Shown here in pieces: positions 432 to 22,642 of a stretch of 64,000 nucleotides of DNA. A model generated the notes under the pieces. The model made no database searches, was not told where the DNA came from, and saw nothing but the letters and a program-made list of their open reading frames with translations. Position numbers and translations under genes: made by a program. This DNA comes from Salipiger profundus (GTDB lineage: Bacteria; Pseudomonadota; Alphaproteobacteria; Rhodobacterales; Rhodobacteraceae). Numbering within the stretch: the first letter of the stretch is position 1; every line of letters begins with the position of its first letter. The stretch lies in the NCBI RefSeq assembly GCF_001969385.1, contig NZ_CP014796.1, positions 2,621,501-2,685,500 of the forward strand. The letters are read 5' to 3'.

Positions 432-2564
432 ATGAGCAGTGCTTTCGACAAGCTGGCGAGGCCTGTGCAGAAATGGATACGCCAGCAAGGATGGCGCGAG
501 CTTCGTGACATCCAGGCGCGATCCATCCGGACGATCTGCGAGACCGATGCCGATTTGATCGTTGCGGCGTCCACGGCGGGCGGAAAGACCGAGGCGGCGT
601 TCCTGCCGTTGATTTCACAGGTGCTTGACGAGCCGTCGGGTGGCACCGGTTTCGACCTGCTCTACATCGGTCCGCTGAAAGCCTTGATCACAGACCAGGC
701 CATGCGGTTGGAGGGCATTTGCCAGGAAGCAGAGCTTCCGGTTGTTCCCTGGCACGGGGATGTCTCGCAATCGATCAAGACGCGCGCGCTGAAATCTCCA
801 AAAGGGATCCTTCTGATAACCCCAGAGTCCCTTGAGGCGCTTTTCATTCGTCGCGGTTTGGAAATTGCCCGCCTGTTTGGGGCGATACGGGCGGTCGTGA
901 TCGACGAGCTGCACACAGTTCTGGACAGCGAACGCGGTGTCCAGCTTCGTTCACTGCTCACAAGGCTCGAGCTCACGATAAAGCGCCCAATCCGTCGGAT
1001 AGGTCTGTCAGCTACGCTGGGCGACATGGACCTCGCCAAGGCCTATCTTCGCCCTGACGCTGCAAACGCTGTCCAGCTCATAGAAGCAGATGGCGGCGAG
1101 GCTGAATTGAGGCTCCAGCTTCGCGGCTACGTATCAGGCGATGAGGATGAAAACAGCCCATCCGCAACGGATGCCATCGCAGCCCATCTGTTCAAGCACC
1201 TTCGAGGCAGCGACAACCTCGTCTTCGCTGGGGCGAGGCAACGAGTCGAGATCTATGCAGATCGGCTGCGGGAACTCTGCGAGCGGGAACACCTGCCGCA
1301 GGAATTCTATCCCCACCACGCGAGCCTCTCCCGAGAACACCGTGACTTCGTGGAACGCCGCTTAAAGGACGCCGCAAAGCCGACAACTGCCGTCTGCACG
1401 TCGACGCTCGAGCTTGGAATCGACATCGGTGATGTGACGTGCGTGGCCCAAATCGGCGCGCCATTCAGCGTCGCCGCGTTGCGACAACGTCTCGGCCGCT
1501 CCGGCCGACGCGAGGGACAGCCAGCCGTCTTGCGGCAGTATGCCGTCGAGACTCAGTTGACGCCAGAAAGCAGCTTCGTTGATCGTCTTCGCCTTGGTTT
1601 GATCCGGTCTATCGCGATGATAGACCTGCTGCTGGAAGGCTGGTGCGAACCTCCAAAACCGCAGGCGCTACATCTCTCGACGCTCGTTCATCAGATACTG
1701 TCAGTCATAGCGCAGCGCGGCGGTGCGTCTGCAAGCGTGGTCTACAACGTGCTCTGCCGCGAAGGCCCCTTTCGGAAGGTCACAACCGAAGTCTTCGCAG
1801 ATGTGTTGCGTGCAATCGGCCACCCAGAAACCGGCTTGATCGAACAGTCCGGAAGCGGACTGCTACTCTTGGGACCTGCAGGCGAAAAGCTGGTCGAACA
1901 CTACAGCTTCTATGCAGTGTTTCAGACGCCTGAGGAATTCCGCTTGGTAGCAGAAGGGAGGGATCTTGGGACCCTGCCGATCGACAATGTTCTTGCCCCA
2001 GGGATGCTTCTGATTTTCTCTGGGCGGCGGTGGGTGGTTCAGGAAATCCATGACCGCGAGAAGGTGATCATGGTCAAGCCCGCGAAAGCGGGCGTGCCTC
2101 CCGTCTTTGGCGGTGATCCAGGTGACATTCATGACAAGGTGATTGATCGAATGTTCGCAATGCTCGAAGGAGGCACCCAACCGGCATACATGGACGCGGC
2201 TTCTCTAAAGATGCTGGCCGATGCGCGTGCACATTATGACCAACTTGGGTTTCGAACCACGAATATCCAGGCTATCGGCGAGCGCACATCGATCATCGCA
2301 ACGCGGGCTGGGACGGTTAAGACGTCAACCCTGGCGCTCGCATTCAGAAGTGAGGGATTTTCAGTCGAGCAGCATGACGGGTTTCTGATGGTAGAGGCCG
2401 GGGATGAAACACCCGATCTTCGGGCGCTACTGGCCGATCTTCGATCCGGCGAACCTGTCGACCTGTTCGCCGGGGCAGGAAACCTGATGTCGGAGAAGTT
2501 TCATCCATATCGTAAACGCTGTCGCCGCCCCACATTGCCGACGGGATCAGCCATTGCGAGTTGA
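432..2564 (+). pseudogene. brxHI: BrxHI-like Lhr superfamily 2 helicase, 3' end cut by IS66
   Basis: This 710-codon frame encodes a DEAD/DEAH helicase of the Lhr type. Motif I is STAGGKTE near residue 48, motif II is VVIDELH near residue 155, and SATLGD (motif III) and LGRSGRR (motif VI) follow. It lies 5 bp after the BrxD-like gene. Up to SEKFHPY near residue 693 it is normal; after that the frame enters the left end of an IS66 element and reads about 18 alien residues (from about base 2512) to a stop at 2564. The native tail lies beyond the element at 4996-5099, in frame once the element and one target copy are removed. Whether the protein with the substituted tail still works is unknown. 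Confidence 0.75.
2504..2511. repeat. left target-site duplication of IS66
   Basis: TCCATATC directly precedes the GTAA terminus of the element and is repeated exactly at 4988-4995. Eight-base duplications are typical of the IS66 family. Confidence 0.95.
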
Positions 2565-3007
2565 TACGCATCCAAAGAGAAGGAGTGCGTTTCGCAATGT
2601 TCGCAAAGAGTTCGTTTCTCACGGCGCTTGGTGTTGAAGTCTTCGCTTCTGGCCAGAGGCGTTGGCCGGATCACGTTAAGGCGCAGGCGGTGGCCGAGAC
2701 GCTGGAGCCCGGGGCGACGGTGTCGGGTGTCGCGGCGCGTTACGAGATCATGCCGAGTCAGCTGACGGCGTGGCGGCGGCTGGCCAAGGAGGGCAAGCTC
2801 GTCTTGCCCGCGGTGGAGGTCAACGAAGCTGTCTTCGCACCTCTGGTGGTCTGCGACGAGATCACGGCGGCCTCTGAGGCTGAACCGCCAAGCGCCGGGA
2901 CGCCGATCAGGATTGTGCGGGGTACGGTCATCATCGAACTCGCGAAGGATGCGCCCGCCGCCCGGATCGCCGAGATCGTCCACGCCTTGGAGGCGCATCC
3001 ATGTTGA
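2561..3007 (+). CDS. tnpA: IS66 accessory protein TnpA
   Basis: This is the first IS66 gene, about 136-148 residues depending on the start (TTG at 2561 or ATG at 2597; the AAGGAG at 2577 favours neither clearly). The N-terminal half has the helix-turn-helix of the IS3/IS66 OrfA type, with VAARYEIMPSQLTAWRR near residue 60, and the C-terminal half is variable. It probably binds the transposon ends. The stop overlaps the tnpB start by 7 bp, implying coupled translation. Confidence 0.85.
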   Translation: MIRIQREGVRFAMFAKSSFLTALGVEVFASGQRRWPDHVKAQAVAETLEPGATVSGVAARYEIMPSQLTAWRRLAKEGKLVLPAVEVNEAVFAPLVVCDEITAASEAEPPSAGTPIRIVRGTVIIELAKDAPAARIAEIVHALEAHPC

Positions 3008-3354
3008 TGCCCTCGCAGGGTGTGCGGATCCTGGTGGCGACGAAGCCGGTCGACTTCCGCAAAGGCCATGATGGCCTCGCGGCGCTGGTGCAGTCGATGC
3101 TGGCCGAGGACCCGTTCACTGGCACGGTCTTCGTGTTCCGCTCGAAGCGCGCCGACCGGTTGAAGATCCTGTTCTGGGACGGCAGTGGTTTGGTCATGGC
3201 CTACAAGCGGCTTGAGGAAAGCACATTCACCTGGCCTTCGATCCGTGACGGGGCCATGACCCTGAACCGCGCACAGTTCGAGGCCATGTTCGCCGGCCTG
3301 GACTGGCGCCGGGTGCGGTCACTGGAGGTCCGCCGTCCGGCTGTGGCAGAGTGA
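3001..3354 (+). CDS. tnpB: IS66 accessory protein TnpB
   Basis: This 117-residue protein is the standard IS66 Orf2, with the family hallmarks TKPVDFRKGHDGL near residue 15 and FVFRSKRADRLKILFWDGSG in the middle. It is needed for IS66 transposition; its biochemical role is poorly known. The ATG at 3001 overlaps the end of tnpA. Confidence 0.95.
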   Translation: MLMPSQGVRILVATKPVDFRKGHDGLAALVQSMLAEDPFTGTVFVFRSKRADRLKILFWDGSGLVMAYKRLEESTFTWPSIRDGAMTLNRAQFEAMFAGLDWRRVRSLEVRRPAVAE

Positions 3355-3408
3355 CTCACCGCGCTGAATAGCCGGACATCGGCACCCCGGGCGCAGTATC
3401 ATCCGCCC

Positions 3409-4959
3409 ATGTCCAGCGCACCGCCCATCGACCTGTCCGCGATCCCCGAGAGCCAGCGCACCGCCGTGCTGGCGCTGTTGCAGGAGAACGGCGCGCTGAA
3501 GGACGCCAACCGGCGGCTGGAGCATCTCGTCGCTGAACTGAACCATGTCGTGCATGGCAAACGCTCTGAGAAGCTGAGCGAGGACGACCGGCAACTGGCC
3601 TTCGAAGACCTGGAAACAGCCGTCGCCGAGGTCGAGACCCGCAAGGAGCAGGCCGCGCCGTCTACCACGACGCCGCGCCGGACGCGTCAGCGCAACCTTG
3701 GCCATTTGCCCGCGGGCTTGCCGCGTATCGAACGGGTCCTCGAGCCGGCCAGCTTCGATTGCCCCTGCGGTTGCGGCCGGATGCACCGGATCGGCGAGGA
3801 CCGCACCGAGCGCCTGGACATCGTGCCTGCGCAGCTCCGCGTGCTGGTCGACATCCGGCCGAAGTATGCCTGCCGCATCTGTTCGGATGGCGTCACTCAG
3901 GCACCTGCCGCGCCCTGGCTGATTGAAGGCGGTCTTCCAACTGAGGGTGCCATTGCACATGTGTTGGTCTCGAAGTTCGCGGACCACCTGCCATTTTACA
4001 GGCAGAGCCAGATCCTGGCGCGCTCCGGCATCCAGGTCGACCGCAGCACACTGGCGGACTGGGCCGGCACTGCAGCCTTCCATCTTGGCCCCGTGGTCGA
4101 TCGGCTAACCGAGCATCTCAAGTCCTCGGGCAAACTGTTCATGGACGAGACCACGGCCCCGGTGCTGGATCCAGGCCGAGGGCGAACCAAGACGGGATAC
4201 TTCTGGGCGCTTGCCCGAGATGACCGCGGATGGGGCGGAGAAGACCCGCCCGGTGTCGTGTTCACCTACCATCCCAGCCGCGCCGGGGCGCATGCAGAGC
4301 AGATCCTCCAGGGCTTCGACGGCACCCTCCAGCTCGACGGCTACACCGGTTACGACCGCCTCACACGCACGTCCCGCAAGGGCGGCGCGCCGATCACGGT
4401 TGCCCACTGCTGGGCACACGCTCGCCGCAAGCTGAAGGAAGTCTTCGACCGGGATGGATCCGAGATCGCTGCCGAGGGGCTGCGCCGCATTGCCGAGCTC
4501 TACCGCATCGAGGCCGAGATCCGCGGCATGGGCTCAGGCCAACGCCTGTCGGCCCGCCAGACCCGCAGCGTGCCCCTCGTGGCCGAGTTCGGTGATTGGC
4601 TGCAGGCACAGCGCCTGCGTATCTCGGCCAAGTCGCGCCTGGGCGAAAAGCTGACCTACATCCATCGCCAGTGGCGCGGCCTGCAGACCTTCCTTCACGA
4701 CGGCCGCGTCGAGATCGACTCCAATGCCGTCGAGAACCTGATCCGCCCGATTGCGCTCACGCGGAAGAATGCTCTCTTCGCCGGCCACGACGAGGGTGGC
4801 CGCACCTGGGCCCGCATCGCCTCCCTGACCGCCACCGCGAAGATCAACGGCGTCGAGCCCTTCGCCTACATCAAGGCGACCCTCGAAGCCATCGCCGCCG
4901 GTCACCCCGCCAGCAGGATCGACGAGCTCCTGCCATGGAACTTGAACCCGTCAAGCTGA
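3409..4959 (+). CDS. tnpC: IS66 transposase TnpC (DDE)
   Basis: This is a 516-residue full-length IS66 transposase. From the N-terminus it has a leucine-zipper-like region, a zinc-binding domain with the CPCGCGRMHRIG cluster (about residues 121-132), and the DDE core: FMDET near residue 245, LDGYTGYDR near 310, and the glutamate in NAVENLIRPIA near 443. It ends with the usual IDELLPW tail. There is no frameshift, so the element looks competent. It lies 54 bp after tnpB. Confidence 0.95.
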   Translation: MSSAPPIDLSAIPESQRTAVLALLQENGALKDANRRLEHLVAELNHVVHGKRSEKLSEDDRQLAFEDLETAVAEVETRKEQAAPSTTTPRRTRQRNLGHLPAGLPRIERVLEPASFDCPCGCGRMHRIGEDRTERLDIVPAQLRVLVDIRPKYACRICSDGVTQAPAAPWLIEGGLPTEGAIAHVLVSKFADHLPFYRQSQILARSGIQVDRSTLADWAGTAAFHLGPVVDRLTEHLKSSGKLFMDETTAPVLDPGRGRTKTGYFWALARDDRGWGGEDPPGVVFTYHPSRAGAHAEQILQGFDGTLQLDGYTGYDRLTRTSRKGGAPITVAHCWAHARRKLKEVFDRDGSEIAAEGLRRIAELYRIEAEIRGMGSGQRLSARQTRSVPLVAEFGDWLQAQRLRISAKSRLGEKLTYIHRQWRGLQTFLHDGRVEIDSNAVENLIRPIALTRKNALFAGHDEGGRTWARIASLTATAKINGVEPFAYIKATLEAIAAGHPASRIDELLPWNLNPSS

Positions 4960-4987
4960 ACAGGCGTGCCGCGGTGACAGCGCTTAC

Positions 4988-4995
4988 TCCATATC
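4988..4995. repeat. right target-site duplication of IS66
   Basis: TCCATATC directly follows the CGCTTAC right terminus and is identical to 2504-2511. Confidence 0.95.
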
Positions 4996-5099
4996 TGTCT
5001 AGCGCGCTTTTAGTTCTGGATGCAGCATCCTCAAAGTTGTCGGTACAAGCGCTTCCCGATGTGGTCGCAGCTATTGTCCGAAAAGGATCCTTCAATTGA
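4996..5099 (+). pseudogene. brxHI: displaced 3' end of the BrxHI-like helicase gene
   Basis: Removing the IS66 element and one target copy joins the frame at 2511 to 4996 and restores HPYLSSALLVLDAASSKL followed by 18 more residues and a TGA at 5097-5099. A helical tail after HPYL is what Lhr-type helicases of this group carry. This fragment has no start of its own and is a remnant. Confidence 0.85.
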
Positions 5100-5455
5100 A
5101 CGCTACGTCCGCCCCACATCTGCTGTCTTCGCTAGTAAGGCCCTATCTGCCCCAAGGATTTGACGCAAAGGGCGGATTCCGGACCTTCTCTGCGCGTGCG
5201 AAGTGAGCTCTGCCAGATCACAGAAGAGGACACTCCGCCAATATCGCGCCGCGGAACCTTGGGTCACCTACAGGGAGGGCGGAGAGCTGACCTTCGCTGC
5301 GCGTTGATCGGATGACTGGAATGGAACCGATTACAGGTGGTCTGGTGCAGGATCTCACTTGAGGACCTAATGTAATTCGCTATCCCTCTTCACCACTTCG
5401 TTCGACAGTTGCCGGCAAACTGGCGACATGCGCGAAAGCGCAATGAAAAGTGTTA
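5100..5455. other. intergenic stretch without a recognisable gene
   Basis: About 355 bp between the end of the interrupted BREX operon and the GNAT gene on the other strand. I see no frame with coding character, no convincing terminator and no IS end. Confidence 0.6.
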
Positions 5456-5905
5456 TCAGCCGGGTACTACATTCAATTCGGAAGCTTCGGGAGGCGAAAT
5501 CACCTTCTGATAGACCCCGACATTGTTTCCGGTGTCGGGATACAAGAACAAGGCTGTGCGCACGAACCCGTTCTTCACAAACAAGCCCGTACTCTCTTCA
5601 TTGTTTTCCCTGATAGTACACTGCAAGATGCGGGCTCTGTCTTTTTTCGCGCGCGCAGTAGCTAAAGTGAGAAGCGCTTGCGCGATTCCCCTCCGACAAT
5701 AATCCCGGTGGACCGTGAGGTGACTGACTTCCGCTTGGTACCACTGGACTTTTTTTACTTCGACGCAACCGACGACTTGATCATCTCGCACTTCGAAAAG
5801 GAATCGTGCGCGAGCACCGAGGATGTCCTTCGCATCGTAGTTTTTGACGAGCTGATTGCGCGTGTTGAGCAAGGCTGCAATCTGTCCGGCGTAGTTCTGG
5901 TCCAT
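5456..5905 (-). CDS. GNAT-family N-acetyltransferase
   Basis: This 149-residue protein has the acetyl-CoA binding motif A of GNAT enzymes, LTVHRDYCRRGIAQALL, around residues 76-92, preceded by the beta strands of the fold and followed by FVKNGFVRTALF. The substrate cannot be read from the sequence. I start at the ATG at 5905, which has GGGGG about 8 bp upstream, rather than at an in-frame codon 20 residues earlier. It is divergent from the OLD/UvrD pair with about 200 bp between them, so the two may share a control region. It could be a cargo gene or part of the defence module. Confidence 0.8.
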   Translation of the reverse strand: MDQNYAGQIAALLNTRNQLVKNYDAKDILGARARFLFEVRDDQVVGCVEVKKVQWYQAEVSHLTVHRDYCRRGIAQALLTLATARAKKDRARILQCTIRENNEESTGLFVKNGFVRTALFLYPDTGNNVGVYQKVISPPEASELNVVPG

Positions 5906-6112
5906 GCTTGTTCCCCCTGTCAGTGCGCCAGCGCGCGGCCGGCTATCGATTCTGGTCGCGGACATGGGTAGCGTAACAGCTCAAGTGGCCCGGGCAACAA
6001 GGCCGCTTAAGCGATGGAACGTTCTGCGGCTGCCATCAAGGTATGGCAGAATGAGCCCGTTTAGTCGTAGCCTCTGTGACAACGGCATTAAAATAGCATC
6101 TTGGGGCAGTGA

Positions 6113-8170
6113 ATGTATTTATCTTCAGTAAAACTGAAAAACTTCCGTTCCTTCGACATTTGTGAGATCGATTTTCAGCCAGACCTTACTGTGTTGGTGG
6201 GCGAGAACAACGGTGGCAAGAGCAACGCGATTGATGCGATCCGCCTCCTAACGATACCGCTCGGCAGCCGCCGCGAGATTTATTGCGAGCCAACAGATGT
6301 AAGGTTTCAGAGCGCTGCCCCACACTTCGAACTCGAAGCGCATTTCTCGGACCTGACAACCGGCCAGCAAGGGCGCCTGATCAGCGCTGCCACGGATACG
6401 ACGCTGACCAAAGCTCTATTCGGATTACGATTTGATGGCAGCCAGACGGGTGTCCGACCGACGGTTTGGGCTGGCAGGGAAGGCAACGCGCCGGAGCCCG
6501 GCTGCCAAGACATGGTGCGTCATGTCTATTTGCCGCCGCTCCGGGATGCAAAACGGACGCTGGCGTCCGGCAATCCGACGCGCATCATGGCGCTATTGAA
6601 TCACTTTCTCGGCGAGACCACGCCTGACGAACTGGCAAAGCACCTCGCACGCAGCCATTCGCATGACGTCCTGACGAGTGTGGACGGTGCTGTGGAAAGG
6701 GGCCTGTCTGAACTTACCTCAGGGGTTCGACGGCAGACCGCTTCGCTCGGATTCGCATCCGACGAGTCTCTTATCGACATCGCACGGGATCTGCGCTTTA
6801 AGCTCGCCGATCATGGCGTGGTGCCGGAAGATTTGCGCTACTCCGGCCACGGTTACGCGAACCTCCTGTTCATGGCGATCATTGCGGTTGAGCTTGAGAA
6901 AGTGCAATCGGCTGACCTCACGCTGTTTTTGGTGGAAGAGCCCGAAGCCCATCTGCACCCGCAATTGCAGGCCGCCGTGCTTGCTTTCTTGCGTGACCGA
7001 GCTGACGCCTCGCGCAAGCAGCCAACGACGAACTCACATGGACCAGCCGGCGAGCTACAAGTAATCGTGGCGACCCATTCCCCCAATCTGTCTGCGTGGG
7101 TCAGCAGCGACCGGCTGGTGGTCTTCAAATCCATCATCGCATCACCCGAGACCAAGACTGAAGACGCCAGTGCCTCCCAATCTCCAGCCTCCGTTTCCAT
7201 TGTGACCGAAGATTCCCTCGCGCGAAGTGGCCCCGAAGAAAGTGTCGAGCCTACTGATGGCCTTGCGACGGCAGTCGCAGCCGCCGCTTCCCGCCGCTCC
7301 ACTCGCTGCATCGCGCTTGCTCGGATGGAGCTTGATCCCATCGATCGCCGCAAGGTGGACAGGTATCTGGATGTCACCAAAGCCGCGCTATTATTCGGCG
7401 GCCGGGTCCTTCTGGTGGAAGGGATTGCCGAGGCGCTGTTATTGCCCGCGATCGCGGAGCACCACACCTTGAAATCCGACAAGGACAAACTCCGTCTCTT
7501 TCGTTCAGCCGTCTTCATCCCGATCGACGGCGTGGATTTCGGCCCCTACGCGACGTTGCTGCTGTCCGCTGTCAACGGCACGCGGATCGCGGACCGCGTC
7601 GTCATCATGACAGACGGCGACAAGGCGACCGGCGGAGACGGCGATGAAGATGATGCCGAGAATCCGGAGGGGGGCATTCCTGATCCAGATGCGGTGCAAT
7701 TAAATGTGGAAGACACCGCTCTATCCAAGGATGACGTGGCGGATGGGATCAAGGGGGCGGAACCATTGACACCTGCTTACAAGGGAAAAGTCGCTCCGGC
7801 GCCGGTGTCGGCGCTTCCGGGCGAGAAGCGGAAGGCGGCCCTAGAAAAGCTCGCCGAGGACTTGGATGCAACGGCGCATCTTGCAGTCCTTACCAGCACC
7901 TACTCGCTGGAGGCCGAACTGCTTGAGGCCGGGAACGGCAATATCCTTCGCAAGGCCTATCTGACTCTTCACCCAAGATCGCAGAAAAAGTGGGACGCCG
8001 TTGCAGCGCTGTCCGGCGATGAGCGTGCGCAAGCTGTCCATGATCTATTCAAGACGACCCGCAAGGGCGACTTCGCCCAAGTGCTTGCACGGTTGGTAGA
8101 AGATGGCGAAGACACCTTTGTGGTCCCAGACTACATGGCAGCTGCGATCCAAGCCGTGGTGGCGCCGTGA
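6113..8170 (+). CDS. gajA: OLD-family ATPase/TOPRIM nuclease, Gabija GajA-like
   Basis: This 685-residue protein has an N-terminal ABC-type ATPase domain: Walker A VGENNGGKS at residues 29-37, the signature-like YSGHGYANLLFMAI near 243, Walker B LFLVEEPEAHLHP near 272 and a switch histidine in VIVATHSPNLSAW. The C-terminal TOPRIM domain has the acidic residue in VLLVEGIAEALLLP near 432 and the DGD motif in VVIMTDGDKA near 495. OLD proteins of this class beside a UvrD helicase form the Gabija anti-phage system, in which GajA nicks DNA when nucleotide levels fall. At 685 residues it is about 100 longer than the best-known GajA; the linker with the acidic and serine-rich stretch near residues 340-380 is the extra part. 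It overlaps the next gene by 4 bp. Confidence 0.8.
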   Translation: MYLSSVKLKNFRSFDICEIDFQPDLTVLVGENNGGKSNAIDAIRLLTIPLGSRREIYCEPTDVRFQSAAPHFELEAHFSDLTTGQQGRLISAATDTTLTKALFGLRFDGSQTGVRPTVWAGREGNAPEPGCQDMVRHVYLPPLRDAKRTLASGNPTRIMALLNHFLGETTPDELAKHLARSHSHDVLTSVDGAVERGLSELTSGVRRQTASLGFASDESLIDIARDLRFKLADHGVVPEDLRYSGHGYANLLFMAIIAVELEKVQSADLTLFLVEEPEAHLHPQLQAAVLAFLRDRADASRKQPTTNSHGPAGELQVIVATHSPNLSAWVSSDRLVVFKSIIASPETKTEDASASQSPASVSIVTEDSLARSGPEESVEPTDGLATAVAAAASRRSTRCIALARMELDPIDRRKVDRYLDVTKAALLFGGRVLLVEGIAEALLLPAIAEHHTLKSDKDKLRLFRSAVFIPIDGVDFGPYATLLLSAVNGTRIADRVVIMTDGDKATGGDGDEDDAENPEGGIPDPDAVQLNVEDTALSKDDVADGIKGAEPLTPAYKGKVAPAPVSALPGEKRKAALEKLAEDLDATAHLAVLTSTYSLEAELLEAGNGNILRKAYLTLHPRSQKKWDAVAALSGDERAQAVHDLFKTTRKGDFAQVLARLVEDGEDTFVVPDYMAAAIQAVVAP

Positions 8171-9897
8171 CCGCACCTTATTGTCCAACCGGCCAACAGA
8201 AGACGGTCATCATTCACGATGGTTCGGCCTTTGTGACGGCGTGCCCGGGCGCTGGCAAGACGCGCACGCTGGTTGAACGTGCCCGGCATCTCGCCGACCG
8301 AACTGACGACAAGCGTGGCGTCGCTTTTCTGTCCTTCACCAACGCCGCGGTGGATGAGCTTCAGAGCCGCCTGGGCTTGTTCGGGCTGCTGACTTCACCG
8401 CTGTTTCCGAGCTTCATCGGTACATTTGACCGGTTCCTGTGGCAGTTCTTCATTGCCCCGTTCGGCATCCCTGGCTGCACGGTGTTGCCGCAATTGGTGG
8501 TCGACAAGAATAATTGGGAGGTGAAGCCACCTTTTGCGAAAGCGCATGCGCTGACCCTCGAGTGCTTCGACAGGAAGACAGGTGCGATCGATGCTGCTCG
8601 CGCTGGAGAACACGGGTTCGACACGACAGAGCGGAATCCCGCAGCTTGGGAAACATGCGCCCGCAGGATCATCCAAAGCGCACGGGCCAATGGGCTGGTC
8701 GATTTTGACGATGTACGGTCGTGCGTAGCCGAACGGCTTGGGGACACGAACTTTGCCGAGCGTGTTGGCAAGGCGCTCGCCGCCCGTTTTCGCGAAATCG
8801 TTGTCGATGAAGCGCAGGACTGCAATCCATCCGACCTTTCCGTGGTCCATTGGCTGCGCCGATCAGGGCTGTCTGTAAAAGTGATCTGCGATCCTCAACA
8901 GTCGATTTTTAAGTTCCGGGGCGGCATCACCAACGAGTTGCTCGACTTCGCAGCTACGTTCGATCCTTCAGAACGGCTCGTGATGAACGGGAATTTTAGG
9001 TCAACGGCAGCGATTTGCTCGGCCATCGTCGCGTTGCGTCCGCCGAGCGCACGGGTCGATAAAGACGAGGCCATCGGTAAGCACAAGGACGATGCAACGC
9101 CGATCCATCTGCTGTCCTATAGTGGGAACGGTGTCTCGACCGCGATTGGGGCAAAGTTTGCTGACCTAGTCCGTTCGCTGGACATTACGATTGGGCACGC
9201 ACCGCTATTGGCATCAACGCTATCAAGCGCCTCGAAAGCGATCGGACAGCCCACCTTGGGCAAAACGAACGAAAAATCGCTGCTCCTAGCGCAGGCTGTG
9301 ATGAGCTATCATTTTTCCTTTACCTCCGGCGGTCGCCGGGAAGCACTGGCGTCCCTGCACAGGATAATCCTGTTCATACAGGGCCACATCGGGACGATGG
9401 GCGACTACCACGCCCATCTCGCCGAAAGCGGTATGATAGACGGGCGCTGGCGGCCAGATGTCATCGCCGTGGCGAACGAACTCAGATACGAGCCGGGAGA
9501 AACTCCCAGCCAATGGCTCGCCAAGGCTCGCCTATCTGTCGAAGCCGACATGGTTAGGGGCCTAAATGTCAATCAGCGTCTTCGATCGCATGCCAACCTC
9601 GCGACTGCTCTGGCGGCTGCACCAGTGGATGCGCCACCGCCACGCACAATTCACTCTGCAAAGGGGCTGGAATTCCCGGCGGTGTGTGTCGTGATGACGA
9701 GCCAAAAAGCCGGAAGAATACTGGATTATCTTGAGGGCGACACAACAAACGGCGCCGATGAGGATGCACGGAAGATTTACGTGGCGGCGTCACGCGCCGA
9801 GCGACTTCTGGTAATGGCAATCCCAAAGAACACTGCCGGTCGGATGCAGGCGCTCCTTACGAGTGTTGGGTGTGCAGTCGAAATCAACAAGATTTAG
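8167..9897 (+). CDS. gajB: UvrD/Rep-family helicase, Gabija GajB-like
   Basis: This is a 576-residue superfamily 1 helicase with all key motifs: Walker A ACPGAGKTRTL near residue 25, motif II IVVDEAQD near 215, motif III CDPQQSIFKFRGG near 241, motif IV NGNFRST, motif V TIHSAKGLEFPAV near 494 and motif VI YVAASRAERLL near 538. The GTG start overlaps the OLD gene stop (GTGA), so the two proteins are made together. In Gabija the GajB helicase senses nucleic-acid ends and partners GajA. It is somewhat longer than the reference GajB, as GajA also is. The stop overlaps the end of a convergent small gene by 3 bp. Confidence 0.8.
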   Translation: MTAPYCPTGQQKTVIIHDGSAFVTACPGAGKTRTLVERARHLADRTDDKRGVAFLSFTNAAVDELQSRLGLFGLLTSPLFPSFIGTFDRFLWQFFIAPFGIPGCTVLPQLVVDKNNWEVKPPFAKAHALTLECFDRKTGAIDAARAGEHGFDTTERNPAAWETCARRIIQSARANGLVDFDDVRSCVAERLGDTNFAERVGKALAARFREIVVDEAQDCNPSDLSVVHWLRRSGLSVKVICDPQQSIFKFRGGITNELLDFAATFDPSERLVMNGNFRSTAAICSAIVALRPPSARVDKDEAIGKHKDDATPIHLLSYSGNGVSTAIGAKFADLVRSLDITIGHAPLLASTLSSASKAIGQPTLGKTNEKSLLLAQAVMSYHFSFTSGGRREALASLHRIILFIQGHIGTMGDYHAHLAESGMIDGRWRPDVIAVANELRYEPGETPSQWLAKARLSVEADMVRGLNVNQRLRSHANLATALAAAPVDAPPPRTIHSAKGLEFPAVCVVMTSQKAGRILDYLEGDTTNGADEDARKIYVAASRAERLLVMAIPKNTAGRMQALLTSVGCAVEINKI

Positions 9898-10109
9898 CGG
9901 GCGATCTCGACCGAGACGAACCAGCCGATCTTACTGCATACTGCTCTTGCTCGCCACGCATTGGGATGCATGATGCCGCCCAATTCCGCGCACATGACGT
10001 GATCGAACGTCTGACTGCTGTGGAGAGCCACAGGAGTTGCTTCGAATGACATTTTGGGAGAAAAACGGACATTGATGACCGGGCGTGCCTGAGATGGCTC
10101 TGCGTTCAT
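9894..10109 (-). CDS. small protein translationally coupled to the caspase-like gene
   Basis: This 71-residue frame starts with an ATG that overlaps the stop of the upstream 300-residue gene in an ATGA arrangement, which argues that it is genuinely translated. The sequence is not recognised. It has no membrane segment and two cysteines; the second half (HVMCAELGG to WFVSVEIAR) looks like alternating beta and helix. A partner, inhibitor or substrate of the upstream predicted protease are all possible; nothing in the sequence decides between them. It converges on the UvrD gene, overlapping its stop. Confidence 0.55.
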   Translation of the reverse strand: MNAEPSQARPVINVRFSPKMSFEATPVALHSSQTFDHVMCAELGGIMHPNAWRARAVCSKIGWFVSVEIAR

Positions 10110-11008
10110 TTTGATGTTGCGCCCGGGTGAGATGACCCGGAGTTTGCCGAGCGCTTCAAAATCCGGTCGAGATCCGCATAGGTGAATGCCGGCGCACGGT
10201 CGATCAGGAAGGATGGCGCGAACAAATCGATCACTTTCTGGCCTGGTTTGAGAGATTCGCGTACCTGGTGCCGGGCCTGTTTTAGTTGTGCACTGGAGGG
10301 GTTTACTATGCCGTTACGTTGCAGAACGGCAGTGACCATGCGCTCCAGGCGATCCTTCCGCATACGACCGATGCAGTAGGTTCGGATGTATCGCAACAGT
10401 GATTGGAGGAACAGGCCCTGACAATGAAATGACTGCATGACGCCTCCGAGTGTCGCCTCGAATGCGGCCGTCACATTCGAGGTTCGGCTCATCTCCCGAT
10501 AGAAGGCCAGTGTTTGCGCCTCTAGGAAGCCGACGCTGATTTTATCAGGTGGGGCGCAAAAGAGATAAGCCGGCACGGGGCGTTTCAGGCTCACCTGTTT
10601 GTAGAGATGCAGGCCGAAGCACAGCGCAAAGATGCAGGTGAGATTGTTGGCCGTCGCAACATTTAGGGACCGCAGGTCTTCGATGATCTCGCCCCAACCG
10701 ACACGTTCGCCGCTCGGAGCAAGCATGAGGCCTTCGGCAACTGAGCCGTGAGCATCGACGTGGAGTACTGGCCTCAATCCTTGCTCGGCCTGCACGGTTA
10801 ACTGCCTGAAGAGATCGCTCAGTTCGACACGATTGCGGACAGCATACTCGAAGACGGGGAAACCGCCGCCGGTGGAAAGGCTCTCAAGGTCCTCGAGGAT
10901 GCGTCGGCTGGGTCCCATCTCCTGATCTGGCAGCGAGTGGATCCAAACGATCGCGTTAGTCTCTAACGTTTCCGAAATTGTGAGGGCACTGTCCGAGTAG
11001 TGTATCAT
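10106..11008 (-). CDS. predicted caspase-like (CHAT/clan CD-type) cysteine protease
   Basis: This is a 300-residue protein without an obvious named family. The predicted order of elements over residues 15-175 matches a caspase-type fold: a strand (AIVWIHSL), a helix, a strand (VFEYAV), a helix, a strand ending in the candidate catalytic histidine (VLHVDAHGS, His87), then a strand ending in the candidate catalytic cysteine (CIFALCFGLH, Cys130), and a further strand (AYLFCAPP) plus helix. The C-terminal 120 residues are basic and helical. The catalytic assignment is inference from pattern. The gene lies 42 bp after the DUF2971 remnant and overlaps the 71-residue gene by 4 bp, so the three probably formed one operon. 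No strong ribosome site precedes the ATG. Confidence 0.55.
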   Translation of the reverse strand: MIHYSDSALTISETLETNAIVWIHSLPDQEMGPSRRILEDLESLSTGGGFPVFEYAVRNRVELSDLFRQLTVQAEQGLRPVLHVDAHGSVAEGLMLAPSGERVGWGEIIEDLRSLNVATANNLTCIFALCFGLHLYKQVSLKRPVPAYLFCAPPDKISVGFLEAQTLAFYREMSRTSNVTAAFEATLGGVMQSFHCQGLFLQSLLRYIRTYCIGRMRKDRLERMVTAVLQRNGIVNPSSAQLKQARHQVRESLKPGQKVIDLFAPSFLIDRAPAFTYADLDRILKRSANSGSSHPGATSK

Positions 11009-11050
11009 TCTGCTGGGGCTCGCCTTGCTCTGGCACCTAATTGGTGTGCA

Positions 11051-11263
11051 CTATACATATCGGGGCTGTCCGAGAAGAGTGGACAACTCAAGGCGATCGC
11101 TGAGTCCGGCGGATGCCACATGCTGAGCGACGGTGGCCCGCTCGGCTTCTGTGGTGGTCGAACCGAGCACGATTCGTTCGATCAAAGCCGAAAGATCGAC
11201 ATCAACAAGGATGCCGTTTTCAGGAACCGGGACGCCATGTGCAGCGACACCGCTGGTGAAACA
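11051..11263 (-). pseudogene. 3' fragment of a DUF2971 gene, separated by IS21
   Basis: About 70 codons with no start of their own: the apparent ATG at 11272 lies in the terminal repeat of IS21. The text ILVDVDLSALIERIVLGS and the following helix and strand up to LLGQPRYV are what DUF2971 proteins have at their C-terminus. The other part lies at 13892-14404 on the same strand and in the same phase (the inserted 2628 bp is a multiple of three). Confidence 0.7.
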
Positions 11264-11282
11264 GCGCGACATCGCAGGTGGT

Positions 11283-13806
<2,524 letters not shown>

Positions 13807-13850
13807 TCTGACGGCCGCAAACCGGCACCGTCAAAAAACGTCACCGTCAT

Positions 13851-13891
13851 CCACCTGCGATGTCGCCCAGCACTCAACTGCGATGTCGCGC
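13851..13891. repeat. paired terminal repeats at the IS21 right end
   Basis: Two copies of CTGCGATGTCGC occur at 13855-13866 and 13878-13889, both inverted with respect to the single copy at the left end. The outer copy extends the match to 14 bp and the inner copy to 16 bp. Confidence 0.75.
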
Positions 13892-14404
13892 CACAACGCC
13901 AAATTCTTCAGCCATGCGAACGGAGATTGCGAGCCGATACTCCCGCTCCCACTCAAAGGCCCTATGCTTGAAAAAGAACCGGTCGAGCATGCCAACGCCA
14001 CGCATGTGAACCTTTGTCAGATCGACATATTGGACCGGACCACCCCACAGATCTTCGACGTCATATTCCGGTTCGAGACGGAAGGGCTTGAAGGCTGAGC
14101 AGATGCGATCAGGCGTGGTGCAGATCGCGATGCCCTTGTGCTCTCCAGCGTAGAGCTTCCACATGGCATCGCTCTCGTACGCGGCGCGATGCCAGCAGCT
14201 GATCTTGGTCAACCGCTTCAGTCGGAAGAAGGCGCGCTCGACACTCTCCATTTCGGCGTAGCGTGGATCCGGAGGCGGCACGTTCAACTGGACAGCCACG
14301 GCACCTTCAAACGGATCGATGAACTGGTTGGCCGATGCAAAATAGAGCCGACTATCCGTCAGCATTGAAAGAAAGCGGTCGAAGCGAAAGTACTTCCACA
14401 GCAT
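13892..14404 (-). pseudogene. 5' part of a DUF2971 gene, cut by IS21
   Basis: The first 171 codons of a DUF2971 protein, whose function is unknown although the family is common in defence islands. Family features are the start MLWKYFRFDRFLSML, the strand plus FASANQFIDPFEGA, the SCWHR segment near residue 85 and the EWEREYRLAI motif near residue 158. I start at the ATG at 14404 with AAGG upstream, because DUF2971 proteins begin this way; a TTG 13 codons earlier is possible. The frame now runs into IS21 and stops within the terminal repeats. The missing tail is at 11051-11263. Confidence 0.75.
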
Positions 14405-15017
14405 CTCGTCGCCCTTAACATGAAGCTCGCCAACCTCGCGCAATATCGCCTCCCAACTTCAACAATACTTGTCCGTCTCTGTCCGCCCATCGGCGAGCGT
14501 CTGCCTTCTTGGTCGGTAATCCATAACCTGAGCATGTAAGCCGGAAAACAGACAGCGTTACCACAGGAGTGAACGGTAGTTCGGTCCGCGTTATTGACCT
14601 CCGACTGTAAGGCCATGCTGCACGATGTCTCGAAGGACGGCACTGGGGAAGCTGCATTGCAGAGATGACCATCCCGACGAACGGCAGGAAAGGGCCGAGG
14701 CTGCATGGAAGCTCTTATTTCCCGAATTCGTGAAGAATGGTTTCCTTGCTGGCCTGCCTGTGGCGGCCCGCATTGGAACAAACTTACACAGGTGCGCCTG
14801 TCCAAGAATATCGTTCCAGGGCAGGCAATGTTCGATCGAGTTTCCACACAGCCTCGGCCGAGAGCGAACATCCCGAGTTGGTCGACCGCGATGATGAGAT
14901 CCAGTTCTGAGGAACGGGTCTCCCCTCAGACCCGGCGGAGAAACCCGCCAGACTGAAGGCGTTTCGCGCCTGCCGGTGCCCGGCGAGTTGGTTGTCGAAG
15001 CCGCGCAGGCTAAGGAG
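14405..15017. other. intergenic stretch without a supported gene
   Basis: About 610 bp between two minus-strand genes. Open frames on both strands lack coding character and any family resemblance. It contains a small GGCGG/CCGCC hairpin near 14933. It may hold the promoter of the DUF2971 operon and decayed sequence. Confidence 0.5.
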
Positions 15018-16584: not shown

Positions 16585-17925
16585 CTAAAGCTTGTCGAAC
16601 ACTGAGCCCATCCTCGGCTCGAACAGCCTTTCATAGGTCTTGAGCAGATAGGTGTCTGTCATACCGGCCACGAAATCGCTGATTTGCCGGAGGTCGCCAC
16701 CTGCTGCTTCCAATTTCGCATGCGCATCGCGCGGCAGCAAACGTTCTGGATCTGATTGCATTGCTTCAAAGACCGAGACAACCATGGATTGCCCCTTGAA
16801 TTCGAGATGTTGTACGCCCGGACTGCGAATAACCACCTGCATTACGAGCTCTTTCAGGGCCTTGAGGAAGCGGGCGGGACCTTCTGGAATCTCGACGCGC
16901 CAGCGGATCAAGGGGTCTTGGAATTCGGGACATTCGATGAAACGGACGGGTGTAATCAGATGATTGACCCACCGGCTGATCCAGCGCTTGCGCGTGTTGC
17001 TGTCGCCAAACAGCCCGTCGACCATGGCCTCGTATGGGGCGTTGCTCTCGGTGGGGCCCTTCAGCCGTCTTTCTTCGACAAAACTCTTGCAGGATTCCTC
17101 GGGAACGAGGTCGCGGAACTGGCGCTCTGTGACGAGCCGAAGTGCAATGGCATCCTCCAAATCATGGACCCCGTAAGCGATATCGTCCGCGAGATCCATG
17201 ATGCTGCAATCGAGAGACTTGTGGAGAGTGCGGGCATGCTTGCCTTCGCGCTTTTCGATCGACGTGAAGGCATCCCGATCAGCATTGCCGAGCGGTTCGA
17301 GAATCCAGTCGACGACGTCGGTTTCGCTGTCGAGATATCCCTTTGGCGGAGTCGAGGCTTTCAAGTCGATGGTTTGCAGAACCGAAGGGCCCTCCTGCAA
17401 CCGCGGGCGCAATTCGGGGTTGCGCAACCTTGAGAGTGCAACAGGGTATTTCAAGACGCCAAGCATGGAACGACGTGACAGGTTGGCCCCTGCGGCGGCA
17501 GAGAAGTTTTCGAGCAGTGCCAGGAGACGCAGGGTCTGGCCGTTGCCCTCGAACCCTTCCGCATCGCGCATGCAGTAGTTCAGTGCTACTTCACCGCCAT
17601 GGCCGAAAGGTGGGTGGCCCAGGTCGTGGGAGCAGGCGATCGCATGGATTTGGCTGCGGTCCGGGAGACTTGCCGTTGCCGAGTGATCGGGGAAACTGCG
17701 CGCGAGCTGGACTGCGAGCCCTCCCGCGATCTGAGCAACTTCCAAGGAATGCGTCAAGCGCGTGCGATAGAAATCACTGTCGCCGAGATTTAGGATCTGG
17801 GTCTTGCCCTGCAATCTTCTGAATGATGCCGAATGGATCACCCGGCCATAGTCGACATCCCCGATATTCCGGGCGTCTTCCTTCTGCGGGTTCCAGGCCT
17901 CTCGGCGAGCATTCCAAGTACTCAA
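16585..17925 (-). CDS. dgt: dGTPase-like HD-domain dNTP triphosphohydrolase
   Basis: This 446-residue enzyme of the dGTPase family hydrolyses dNTPs to nucleosides and triphosphate. The HD metal site is visible: SFRRLQGKTQ near residue 34, TRLTHSLEV with His59, SHDLGHPPFGHGGE with His100-Asp101, and the distal aspartate in MDLADDIAYGVHD near 250. It starts 24 bp after the YhaN gene, so it is co-transcribed with an Mre11/Rad50-like pair. Bacterial dGTPases can defend against phage by emptying the nucleotide pool; housekeeping copies also exist. The location among defence genes favours the former. Confidence 0.9.
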   Translation of the reverse strand: MSTWNARREAWNPQKEDARNIGDVDYGRVIHSASFRRLQGKTQILNLGDSDFYRTRLTHSLEVAQIAGGLAVQLARSFPDHSATASLPDRSQIHAIACSHDLGHPPFGHGGEVALNYCMRDAEGFEGNGQTLRLLALLENFSAAAGANLSRRSMLGVLKYPVALSRLRNPELRPRLQEGPSVLQTIDLKASTPPKGYLDSETDVVDWILEPLGNADRDAFTSIEKREGKHARTLHKSLDCSIMDLADDIAYGVHDLEDAIALRLVTERQFRDLVPEESCKSFVEERRLKGPTESNAPYEAMVDGLFGDSNTRKRWISRWVNHLITPVRFIECPEFQDPLIRWRVEIPEGPARFLKALKELVMQVVIRSPGVQHLEFKGQSMVVSVFEAMQSDPERLLPRDAHAKLEAAGGDLRQISDFVAGMTDTYLLKTYERLFEPRMGSVFDKL

Positions 17926-17949
17926 ATCAACTCTCCTCGGCGCGATGTC

Positions 17950-20900
17950 TTAAAGTTCATGAATGACCGGAGGCGTTACGCAAACGCTCTTTGCGATCTC
18001 GACCACGTGGCGGTGGTGGGTCAGGTAGATCGCTTGGCCGCGTCCGCCGATGGCTTCCATGACGCGGCAGGCGGCGCTGGTGCGCGCCTCGTCGAAGGTT
18101 TCGAAGATGTCGTCGCAAAAGAACGGAAGCCTCGTGCCCTGCGCGACAAGTTGTTCGTGGGCCGCTGCCCGCAGAGCTAAGTATAGTTGGAAGCGCGTGC
18201 CCTTGGACATTCCGGCCGCACGCTTGCTGACCCCATTGCCATCGACGGCGAGCAAAATCTCGGACTCCTTGTCGATCTGGGTACTCAGCGTCGGATAGGC
18301 GCCTTGCGTGAGACTGGCGAAGCAGTCTTCCGTGGCTGTCAACATGCCGCTGCGATGGCTGTCGCGATAGCGCCGGATGGCGTCGGAGGCGAGGTGATGG
18401 CCCAGGGAAAGTTCGAGATGCTCCAAGGCAGCCTCTTCGAGCTGCAGTTCCAGCGTCGCTTTCTGCTCGACCAATTCCGCAACCGTGTCGTCTCCCTTCA
18501 CCTCGGCTAGGGCATATTCGGCGGCTGTGCGGTTTTGAATGGCGAGGGTCAGCTCGTCCTCGGCATGGGCAAGATCGGATCGGTTGCTGTCGAGTTCGCC
18601 CTCCAATGCGGCAACTGAGGTCTCTGCAAGCTGGGCGCGGGCTGTCTCGATGTCGGTCGTGCCCAGTTCGGCCAGGACCTGGCGGGTGATTTTCGCCAGC
18701 GCGGCGCGGTTGTCGATTGCTTTCTGCGTGCGGATTGCGGCCTCGCGAAGGGCGCCGATATCGCCCGGGGTGGTCGTATCGGGGAAAAGCATGGCGATGG
18801 TCGCGACCTCTTGGTCGATGGCGTTTTGCCGATCCTTGTGTTCGACAAGCTCGGCCTCGGCCGTCTCGATCGCGGTGTCGAGTTTTCGGCCCGTCTCAGT
18901 GGCCGAGCGCGCTTTTTCCGCCAAGGTTTTGAGGGCGGCGAACGTCTTTGCCGCCGTTGCATGAGGCTCCTGCTCATGGGCGCGTGCCAGGCTGTCGATC
19001 TCCTGGGCGAACTGCTTTTGGTCCGCCTGCATGGTTGTGATCCGGCGCCCGGCCGCGGCGCGTGCGTTTTCGTGTTCGCGCAAAGCGCGCAGGGGCTCCA
19101 GCGATGCCTCCAGCCGTTCGGGGGGCAATGCCGCTCCGAGGAGGTCGTGGACCAGTGCGCGCCAGGTCTTCTTCGCATCCTCCCTTGCCTTAAACGCTTT
19201 TGCGTAACGCTCTTCGCGCCGGGCGAGATCCCGTCGCGCCTGTCGCAGGGTTGTCTCGGCCGTTGCATGGGCGTCGGTTTCTTTGCGGTCGTCCTCGGCT
19301 TGACGCCGGGCCGCCGCCAGGGCGCCGGTCAGGTCTGCCGGGGGAAAGGGCAGGGTCCGGGTCAGCTCGGCCAGTAGGGCGTCGGCGCGTTGGAGGGTGG
19401 ATTGATTGGCCTCTTCCGTGTCGCGCAGGGCCTGGGCATCTTCGCTGGCCGCGTCATGACTTAGGCTCCAGTCCAACCATTCGGCGGGTGTGATGCTGTC
19501 TGGAAGGCCGACCTGAGCTGCCGCTGCGCTGACAGCGGCCTCGATAGTGCTGCGGTCTTCGCGAAGAGTTTGCAGCCGTTTGTCGGCCTGAGCCGCACGG
19601 GTGCGCGCCTGGGCTTCGGCCTGGCCGATTTCGCGGAGCTGTGCCAGTTCGCGCGACTGCGCCAATCGCGCTTGGGCAGCGATATCATGCGCTTGCATCG
19701 CCTCGTGGAAAACGGCGGCGGTCTGTCTGTCCAAGGCGGCAAGATGCTCTGCCCAGCGTGCATCGCGCCGCGCGCGCAGATCCTCGGCATCGGCATCGGA
19801 GATGAGCTTTGCGTCCCGGGCCAGCGATTTGGCCTGAGCGCCGCGGGCCTCCGCGTCCTCCAGATGCTCGTCGCGCTTTGCCGTTGTCGTGCGCAGGTTG
19901 TGAAGCAAGTCCTGATGGCGCTCGGCCCAGTTGGTTGCCTGGTGACGGGAGGTCGGGCAGGCGGGTAGATGATCGAAAGTGACGCCTGCGAATGAGAGCG
20001 CAGCCAGGGAGCGCCGCGCCTTGATCTTCATATCCCCGATTGCCTGTTGCGCTGCGGCGTAGGCAGGGGCGAGGGTCTCGGCATCGAAGCGCAGCAGAAT
20101 ATCTGCGACCCGTGGCCGATCGTCGTCCTGGGGCGCGACATCCTGCATGGCTGCGGTCGCGGCGATCACCCGCTCTTTCAATTCGGCGGTTTCGCGCGCC
20201 TCGATCTTTTCTTGGGAAATCGCCTCGCGCAGCGTTTCCCTGGCGCTCTCCAGAGACGCAATATCGGCGCCCGACAGGACCAGCCCTTGCAGATCGACCT
20301 CCGGCGAGGTGAGCCCAAGATCCCATGCGGCCTGCTGCATCGATGTCTGCGCGGCCTGCCGTTCCTGCTCGCGCCTATCGAGGTCGAGCTGTGCGGTGCG
20401 ATCCCGTGCGGCGAGGTCCTCTAGCGCCGCTAGCGTGTTCGAGAGATCAACAAGTTTTGGATCCAGAGCGAGGGATTCGCGATCTGCCCTGAGGCGCGCG
20501 ATCTGCTCGGTCAGGCCTGCGATATTCTGTGTGGCTAGCCCGCGATCTCTGTGTAGCTCGATCAGCCGTTCCGGATCGAAATCCAGATGATCTGGATAGG
20601 ACGCGAAAGGTGCAATCGCCTGTTCCAGTTCCTGTATCTCGCCCATCAGGGGCAGGGCACGCCTCTGCGCCTCCATCCGTGCCTTCGTCAGATTCAGCAC
20701 ATCCCGCGTCTTGCGCGCCTCCCGCTCGGCCTCTTGTGCCTTGCCCAAATCTTTCTTGAGGGCCTTCCAGGCGCTGGCGGTCACGTCGCGGTCCTTGATT
20801 TCCTTTTCCACATCGGCCAAGGCGCGTTTCCACTCGGCCTTGCGGGTGGTGCGTCCGCGTTTTTTCCAGAGCGCGTCGGCCCGCTCGCGGACGTGATCCA

Positions 20901-21387
20901 GAACGGTGCTCAGGTCGGCCACGCCCGCTGCAGCGGAAAAGAGCAGGCGCCCGATATCCCCTTCGGCATTTGCGATCTCTTCGCCGCCGCGTTCGATCGT
21001 CTCGTCGTCAAGGCAGAGCAGGCGGCGGTAATCCTCTTCGGACAATCCCGCGAGATGGGCGGAGAGGGCAGCCTCGGGCAGCGCGGTGCCGGTCGCGTCG
21101 ACCAGCGATCCGCTGCGCGTCGGCAGCCGCGTGAAATCACGCAAGACACCGTCGATATCCAGCCTGGCCGAGACTTGGAGGTTATTGCGCGGATGCTTGA
21201 ACGCATACCCCTCCCGCAGCGGGAAGCCGTAGAATAGCCGTAGGACGGCTTCCATCGTGGTGGTTTTTCCGGCTTCGTTCGGGCCATAGATGATGTGGAA
21301 ATCATGGCCATCGGAGGCCGAGCCAAAGTCGAAGTGCCGGTCGGTGAAATGGCCGAAACGATCAAGGGAGAGGCGCTGGAGCCGCAT
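17950..21387 (-). CDS. yhaN: YhaN-type SMC/Rad50-like ATPase
   Basis: This 1145-residue protein has the layout of SbcC/Rad50 relatives of the YhaN type. Walker A is YGPNEAGKTTTM at residues 34-45, long heptad-rich coiled coils fill about residues 180-1000, and the C-terminal half-ATPase has the ABC signature in AAGMSKGTRFQLYLALRAA and Walker B in LPFFCDDIFETFDEARTS. It probably works on DNA ends together with the YhaO nuclease encoded just upstream. Its ATG overlaps the yhaO stop by one base (TGATG). Confidence 0.9.
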   Translation of the reverse strand: MRLQRLSLDRFGHFTDRHFDFGSASDGHDFHIIYGPNEAGKTTTMEAVLRLFYGFPLREGYAFKHPRNNLQVSARLDIDGVLRDFTRLPTRSGSLVDATGTALPEAALSAHLAGLSEEDYRRLLCLDDETIERGGEEIANAEGDIGRLLFSAAAGVADLSTVLDHVRERADALWKKRGRTTRKAEWKRALADVEKEIKDRDVTASAWKALKKDLGKAQEAEREARKTRDVLNLTKARMEAQRRALPLMGEIQELEQAIAPFASYPDHLDFDPERLIELHRDRGLATQNIAGLTEQIARLRADRESLALDPKLVDLSNTLAALEDLAARDRTAQLDLDRREQERQAAQTSMQQAAWDLGLTSPEVDLQGLVLSGADIASLESARETLREAISQEKIEARETAELKERVIAATAAMQDVAPQDDDRPRVADILLRFDAETLAPAYAAAQQAIGDMKIKARRSLAALSFAGVTFDHLPACPTSRHQATNWAERHQDLLHNLRTTTAKRDEHLEDAEARGAQAKSLARDAKLISDADAEDLRARRDARWAEHLAALDRQTAAVFHEAMQAHDIAAQARLAQSRELAQLREIGQAEAQARTRAAQADKRLQTLREDRSTIEAAVSAAAAQVGLPDSITPAEWLDWSLSHDAASEDAQALRDTEEANQSTLQRADALLAELTRTLPFPPADLTGALAAARRQAEDDRKETDAHATAETTLRQARRDLARREERYAKAFKAREDAKKTWRALVHDLLGAALPPERLEASLEPLRALREHENARAAAGRRITTMQADQKQFAQEIDSLARAHEQEPHATAAKTFAALKTLAEKARSATETGRKLDTAIETAEAELVEHKDRQNAIDQEVATIAMLFPDTTTPGDIGALREAAIRTQKAIDNRAALAKITRQVLAELGTTDIETARAQLAETSVAALEGELDSNRSDLAHAEDELTLAIQNRTAAEYALAEVKGDDTVAELVEQKATLELQLEEAALEHLELSLGHHLASDAIRRYRDSHRSGMLTATEDCFASLTQGAYPTLSTQIDKESEILLAVDGNGVSKRAAGMSKGTRFQLYLALRAAAHEQLVAQGTRLPFFCDDIFETFDEARTSAACRVMEAIGGRGQAIYLTHHRHVVEIAKSVCVTPPVIHEL

Positions 21388-22622: not shown

Positions 22623-22642
22623 GATCGAACCCCTGACATAGA

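Follow-up and report, generated by a model that had tools for sequence, protein, structure and literature searches.

Genes at the locus

We analysed a stretch of 64,000 nucleotides from Salipiger profundus (NZ_CP014796.1), hereafter the window, in which a gene for a predicted caspase-like protease lies directly downstream of a gene encoding a DUF2971 protein. Coordinates are positions in the window; other loci carry the labels L001-L042, and two other genomes the labels G272 and G327. The caspase-like gene (10106..11008, minus strand), recognised from the list of open reading frames (ORFs), profile searches and a predicted structure, encodes 300 amino acids (aa) and belongs to an unnamed family. 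The DUF2971 gene, on the same strand, is split. Its N-terminal part (13896..14443; residues 1-183, with a TTG start) was identified as an ORF, by Pfam and the PADLOC model PDC-S31 and by alignment to the related locus L009, and lies within a 189-aa ORF (13874-14443; Pfam DUF2971, 7e-5), whereas the C-terminal remnant (11051..11237; the last 61 residues) was recovered by tblastn, alignment to L009 and the profile. The stop codon in this remnant (11051-11053) is separated from the start of the caspase-like gene by 42 bp (11009-11050). An earlier, sequence-only reading had described here a three-gene cassette, consisting of a split DUF2971 gene, a protease-like gene beginning 42 bp after it and a 71-residue ORF that overlaps the latter by ATGA. 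The positions of the two intact minus-strand ORFs (10106-11008 and 9894-10109), the ATGA overlap, the spacing and the presence of DUF2971 pieces on either side of an insertion were all confirmed; the DUF2971 start at 14443 lies slightly beyond the end given at that time (14404).

The AlphaFold2 model of the 300-aa protein (pLDDT 88) shows a caspase fold at about residues 18-197, followed by a C-terminal part (about 200-290) that is predicted to be helical. Among solved structures, the CHAT part of SAVED-CHAT (PDB 8tl0) was the first match, with caspases next. The predicted catalytic histidine, His87 (codon 10748..10750, minus strand), is part of an HxDxHG motif and aligns with the GHG histidine of C14 peptidases, and the predicted catalytic cysteine, Cys130 (codon 10619..10621, minus strand), aligns with the C14 DAC cysteine. 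Both residues are conserved in this order and in register with C14: of the 123 rows of the family, 117 have the histidine (the six others are fragments of 181-244 aa) and 122 the cysteine. A caspase fold with a conserved His/Cys dyad is thus a firm prediction of the model and the alignments, and the assignment as a caspase-like, predicted protease, a guess in the sequence-only reading, is well supported. By sequence the protein is not recognised by Pfam, NCBIfam or PADLOC, and none of 18 family members matched Pfam C14 or CHAT at E values up to 10; we therefore file the family as a separate one of the caspase fold, outside both Pfam families. A PDB sequence search returned only a hemin degrading factor (E 0.4) and the TorS sensor (E 8.5e-4), the latter covering the helical half. 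The protein also matches phrog_38219 in PHROGs (E 2e-24; annotated as unknown function), so that phage or prophage sets contain relatives from the same family. Profile comparison of the family with CHAT, based on three CHAT sequences only, reached at most 0.7% although structure ranks a CHAT protease first; this comparison is weak here because CHAT and C14, which are relatives by fold, reach only 14.9% themselves. Caspase-like proteases are a theme common to bacterial and animal immunity, which lends interest to a family that escapes Pfam, NCBIfam and PADLOC.

The structural model of the DUF2971 protein comes nearest to DarT ADP-ribosyltransferases, and the best matches to it are transferases; a DarT-like transferase fold is therefore probable, with moderate confidence. 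Two glutamates, E166 and E168, are invariant and located at a predicted helix-strand junction; we take them to resemble an ExE motif. Y18, H85, W95 and Y98 are conserved as well. The PDC-S31 profile, presumably a single-gene candidate, is matched by both the intact protein of L009 (E 1.8e-19) and the N-terminal piece in the window (E 2.8e-15), for which Pfam reports DUF2971 alone. DUF2971, a defence candidate, gains a biochemical hypothesis from the fold and the pairing, namely the transfer of ADP-ribose from NAD+. Among PDB sequences the DUF2971 profile found no match, and a comparison with viral predicted structures gave seven matches at E values up to 0.001, all to uncharacterised or unnamed proteins. 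A DUF2971 gene with 47% identity is also present in an IMG/VR contig (L042:5971-6708) without a caspase-like neighbour, surrounded by genes that we take to be phage baseplate genes.

The two DUF2971 pieces are separated by an IS21-type insertion element of 2,658 bp (11238..13895), which is missing from the near-identical L009 copy of the locus in Carideicomes alvinocaridis SCR17, where DUF2971 is intact. Alignment with L009 places the insertion between 11237 and 13896 and reveals a 6-bp target-site duplication (11232..11237 and 13896..13901). The element has the ends TGT...ACA, which agree at 18 of their first 30 positions, and encodes on the plus strand an istA-like transposase (11417..12943; an ORF with weak Mu-transpos_C_2 and rve_3 matches, below the cut-offs) and the helper ATPase IstB (12940..13806; Pfam IstB_IS21, E 9.9e-65). 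Since it splits the transferase gene, the gene pair in the window is probably defective or has only its protease left. A second insertion without counterpart in L009 (about 2512-4987) contains a 516-aa ORF, presumably an IS66-type transposase, and cuts off the 3' end of a gene for a DEAD-box helicase (start at 432), a second disrupted gene of the island.

The 71-aa ORF (9894..10109, minus strand) had been regarded as a small partner or substrate of the protease, a view that its distribution does not support. In tblastn searches of L001-L025 it matched solely copies of one and the same mobile element (L001, L002, L009), and plasmids, phages, Pfam and PADLOC contained no match (this ORF was not run against the large protein database). 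DNA homology to the window ends at 10084 in L011, L012 and L013 and at 10110 in L010, which is where the ORF begins; in L011 and L012 a DUF4238 gene ends there instead. Its codon-position G+C contents (0.54, 0.49, 0.62) are uninformative. Because these searches found no relative beyond the element and homologous DNA stops at its start, the ORF is probably not a gene. Two genes rather than three make up the cassette.

Linkage of the two genes and their carrier element

The co-occurrence of both genes was assessed in 21 caspase-like loci, leaving out partial loci at contig ends (L019, L025), loci representing the window copy or the genome of L009 (L001, L002, L026) and L003, which is the same gene as L017; L004 and L005 are near-duplicates within this set. 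A DUF2971 gene, detected by our profile (A4), is present in four of them (L009, L010, L011, L013), always 41-42 bp upstream and in the same order. Intact natural versions of the cassette include a Tropicimonas, a Mesorhizobium and a Carideicomes type. A search of whole genomes, the 15 from which L009-L024 except L019 derive, found DUF2971 in these same four only, in one copy each; the 15 include the genomes of L017, L020 and L024, loci whose upstream DNA is short. The A4 profile was used because the short Pfam model detected DUF2971 in only 2 of the 15 genomes, namely the L013 copy and a distant DUF2971 in the genome, but outside the locus, of L021. In L011 and L013 the DNA homologous to the window starts at the DUF2971 start and ends just past the protease stop.

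In a tree of 45 caspase-like proteins, the ten rows scored as linked (three loci plus seven contig matches, including that of L010) fall within a single clade of 23 rows (100/99), which also holds an unlinked Ancylobacter gene and 12 rows without linkage information. Linkage requires two changes on this tree, compared with a mean of 5.6 after shuffling, and none of 500 shuffles was as low. The protein distances of ten DUF2971/caspase pairs (a further matching pair was a fragment and is omitted; L010 counts once) are weakly correlated, with a Mantel r of 0.45 and 84 of 5000 permutations as high. In addition, at least eight row pairs of the caspase-like and DUF2971 protein clusters, among the 120 of 577 DUF2971 rows listed, agree in the length of their longest contig, with caspase-like identities of at least 82%; this is an indirect sign that both genes reside on one contig. 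The recurrent linkage of three families that the sequence-only reading had named as support was found for the DUF2971/protease pair, with constant order and spacing in four lineages of the protein's own clade, and not for the 71-aa protein, which in L001-L025, plasmids and phages is absent outside the same element. Homologues of the protease without DUF2971, named there as grounds for abandoning the idea, make up most of the family (17 of 21 loci), but not the clade to which this protein belongs. A clade-specific module is the best reading of this pattern.

Within the family of the window's genome, 388 genomes were searched with the DUF2971 profile. E values below 1e-100 were confined to the window's own genome and G272, the source genome of L009, which share the same element; four others gave E values of 4e-11 to 7e-4. 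The caspase-like gene was found in 3 of 394 genomes of the family, the third being G327 (66% identity), which is not one of the six that matched DUF2971. In samples that each included the window's genome, the caspase profile was found in 1 of 390 genomes of the order, 1 of 385 of the class and 2 of 398 of the phylum. No caspase-like locus was found in the IMG/VR or phage records searched.

Around the locus, L009 and the window are identical over three blocks at 99.96-99.99% of DNA positions, the IS21 insertion of the window being missing from L009, and the two source genomes are assigned to different genera of one family. On the G272 contig the match starts at 29793, corresponding to position -4235 (to the left of the window), and from there five blocks with 92-99.97% identity (four of them at least 99.0%) extend to position 90993, the end of the compared DNA, so that at least about 95 kb are common to both genomes. 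For the 29.8 kb preceding the match, no match of at least 300 bp was found in the compared part of the window's chromosome (144 kb). Since this differing flank lies on one contig with the match, we consider a mix-up in assembly unlikely, and the shared DNA is most simply explained by recent transfer rather than common descent. Two tRNA-Glu genes are located about 1.8-2 kb before its left edge. Between 48.6 and 62 kb the window encodes a DUF3363 protein, which we take to be relaxase-like, a coupling protein, a TrbB-like T2SSE protein, a TrbE/VirB4-like protein and TrbL. These conjugation genes indicate an integrative conjugative element of the Trb type, of which the locus would be cargo. As L009 represents the same element, it is not an independent witness of the gene pair. 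L013 shares a region with the window at 34.7-41.4 kb (about 74% identity), but its copy of the gene pair is located elsewhere.

A possible defence module and its alternatives

With a little less than even confidence, we favour the view that the DarT-like DUF2971 transferase and the caspase-like protease constitute a two-gene cargo module of the Trb-type element that acts upon infection; the pair may be a new infection-triggered defence module, and we regard a defence role as likely. The protease would be inactive before infection and triggered through its helical part or by a phage product; it would then cleave a target, whereupon growth or replication would stop. In the linked clade the DUF2971 transferase would be a co-expressed partner that adds ADP-ribose to nucleic acid or protein and is under direct or indirect control of the protease. 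The trigger, the substrate, the coupling of protease and transferase and the anti-phage activity are elements that we only infer. That a protease with a conserved caspase dyad is found in the company of defence genes is an argument for its activation by infection. Two described systems lead us to favour a protease-plus-transferase module: Canu (CanABC), in which a caspase activates a partner nuclease and whose authors suggest that further classes of enzymes may be activated likewise (PMC12799240), and CmdTAC, in which degradation of the antitoxin releases a defence ADP-ribosyltransferase (PMC11618068).

The likeness to these systems is partial. Canu (PMC12799240) and the present case both combine a caspase-family protease with an adjacent enzyme in defence islands, and infection-triggered proteolysis is supported there and proposed here. 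The Canu partner is a gated metallo-beta-lactamase (MBL) nuclease downstream of the caspase, whereas here it is an upstream DUF2971 protein with a predicted DarT-like fold; no MBL-fold nuclease was found as partner, the top structural matches of DUF2971 being transferases. Furthermore, Canu includes CanB, of which we saw no counterpart at our locus, and an Ig-like C-terminal fold of the caspase, in contrast to the predicted helical C-terminus and the lack of an obvious gating insertion in the partner here (PMC12799240). CmdTAC shares an anti-phage ADP-ribosyltransferase whose activation involves protein degradation but uses an antitoxin and a chaperone, and its abstract names no dedicated caspase (PMC11618068). 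The PDC-S31 model entries shown, which DUF2971 matches, include no protease partner. SAVED-CHAT carries a SAVED sensor, whereas the 300-aa protein has only about 100 further residues, predicted to be helical, and no match to the Pfam CHAT model. The caspase-DUF2971 pair was not found in titles and opening parts of abstracts of the literature on defence caspases and DarT, a coverage that excludes subscription papers and most preprints; in the literature searched, DUF2971 appeared only in a Halomonas reannotation and never together with phage, and PDC-S31 was not mentioned. Within this coverage, the earlier statement that no such composition has been described holds.

By analogy, the protease might control the transferase as in the Canu caspase-nuclease systems, which we regard as possible rather than probable. 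A still more speculative extension, rather unlikely in our view, is that a minimal caspase switched on by infection proteolytically activates or releases the DarT-like transferase and that other defence systems (Avs3-like genes, CBASS neighbours) have likewise recruited members of the 300-aa family as a general caspase plug-in. If true, protease-activated effectors would extend beyond the Canu nuclease to a bacterial caspase-ADP-ribosyltransferase axis. The recurrent pairing with a DarT-like enzyme in itself suggests that the effectors under the control of bacterial caspases may not be limited to nucleases and pore-formers.

Several observations weigh against a coupled module. Each gene also occurs without the other: DUF2971 is lacking in 17 of 21 caspase-like loci, and none of five other DUF2971 loci (four among 27 plasmid records and one from IMG/VR) has a caspase-like gene. 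The DUF2971 proteins of linked pairs have no clear additional insertion, and just three of their positions are specific to the clade. These separate occurrences point to the strongest alternative, nearly as likely as the module, in which two independent single-gene defence cargoes travel together and their adjacency goes back to one founding event inherited by the clade. The match of DUF2971 to PDC-S31 and its solitary position in the IMG/VR contig, the Ancylobacter locus with the protease only and the restriction of all linked rows to one clade agree with this explanation. It accounts less readily for the unvarying gene order with a spacing of 41-42 bp across four lineages, the homologous DNA bounded by the DUF2971 start and the protease stop in L011 and L013, and the weak mirror signal between protein distances.

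In DarTG the toxin gene is followed by that of its regulator. The DUF2971 model resembles DarT, and here, too, the enzyme gene comes first with a second gene directly downstream; in contrast to DarTG (PMC5179494), this second gene encodes a caspase-like protease instead of the DarG macrodomain, and DUF2971 is also found without it. No DarG macrodomain was found next to DUF2971 in L009, L010, L011 or L013, where the caspase-like gene follows directly. The shared gene order, together with the reported freeing of the CmdTAC transferase by antitoxin degradation (PMC11618068), would suit an antitoxin-like protease that restrains a DarT-like toxin by cleaving it and whose loss of activity during infection frees the toxin. 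We consider this improbable, as DUF2971 lacks a caspase-like neighbour in all five other loci, the protease lacks DUF2971 in 17 of 21, and the protease persists in the window even though DUF2971 is split. A three-gene system with the 71-aa product as substrate or partner of the protease, as initially envisaged, has the ATGA overlap in its favour but is highly implausible given the lack of relatives outside the element copies (L001-L025, plasmids, phages) and the end of homologous DNA at the ORF start in L010-L013.

Defence genes in the neighbourhood

The defence-island setting proposed for the locus was corroborated by the adjoining plus-strand genes of a Gabija system, gajA (6113..8170; PADLOC PDLC00100, 1038.7 bits), which lies outside the cassette, and the convergent gajB (8167..9897; PDLC00149, E 3.5e-256). 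Among L001-L025 and the window, both are confined to copies of the same element (window, L001, L002, L009), apart from a 54-residue P-loop match in L014, and in L001-L025 the caspase-like/DUF2971 pair was not a conserved further part of Gabija loci. Elsewhere in the window (16585-22646), a dGTPase-like gene (PADLOC dGTPase, E 7.5e-141) lies beside genes for an AAA_27 ATPase and a calcineurin-type phosphoesterase.

Chosen neighbours of 11 caspase-like loci, scanned with PADLOC without control loci, included known defence genes in six cases: Gabija in L009 (by identity with the window), a CBASS cyclase and phospholipase in L007, an AbiD/PD-T4-5-like gene in L012, Cas9 in L016, a cyclase, AriA/GajA-like ATPases and TmtA in L022, and an Avs3-like STAND gene in L023. 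The scanned neighbours of L014, L015, L018 and L020 gave no PADLOC match, and those of L011 only DUF4238, weakly (1.7e-4). In L023 (Pseudomonas helleri), the STAND gene (3470-10837) encodes 2,157 aa that match Avs3a best at residues 10-816 and ends 57 bp before the caspase-like match, possibly forming a STAND-caspase pair. The DUF4238 gene is arranged tail-to-tail with the caspase-like gene in both L011 (Mesorhizobium) and L012 (Ancylobacter; 10879-12153), with 86% identity, while DUF2971 is present only in L011. The caspase-like gene of L016 follows rpoC and precedes the Cas9 gene, and the upstream neighbour gene is 97% identical in L015, so that this site is possibly an insertion hot spot. 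A distant caspase-like homologue (L008:5980-6858), without DNA match in E. coli records, occurs on Klebsiella plasmids, mostly of about 110 kb (16 of 20 plasmid matches), and some of these homologues are annotated as 'HMG-box'.

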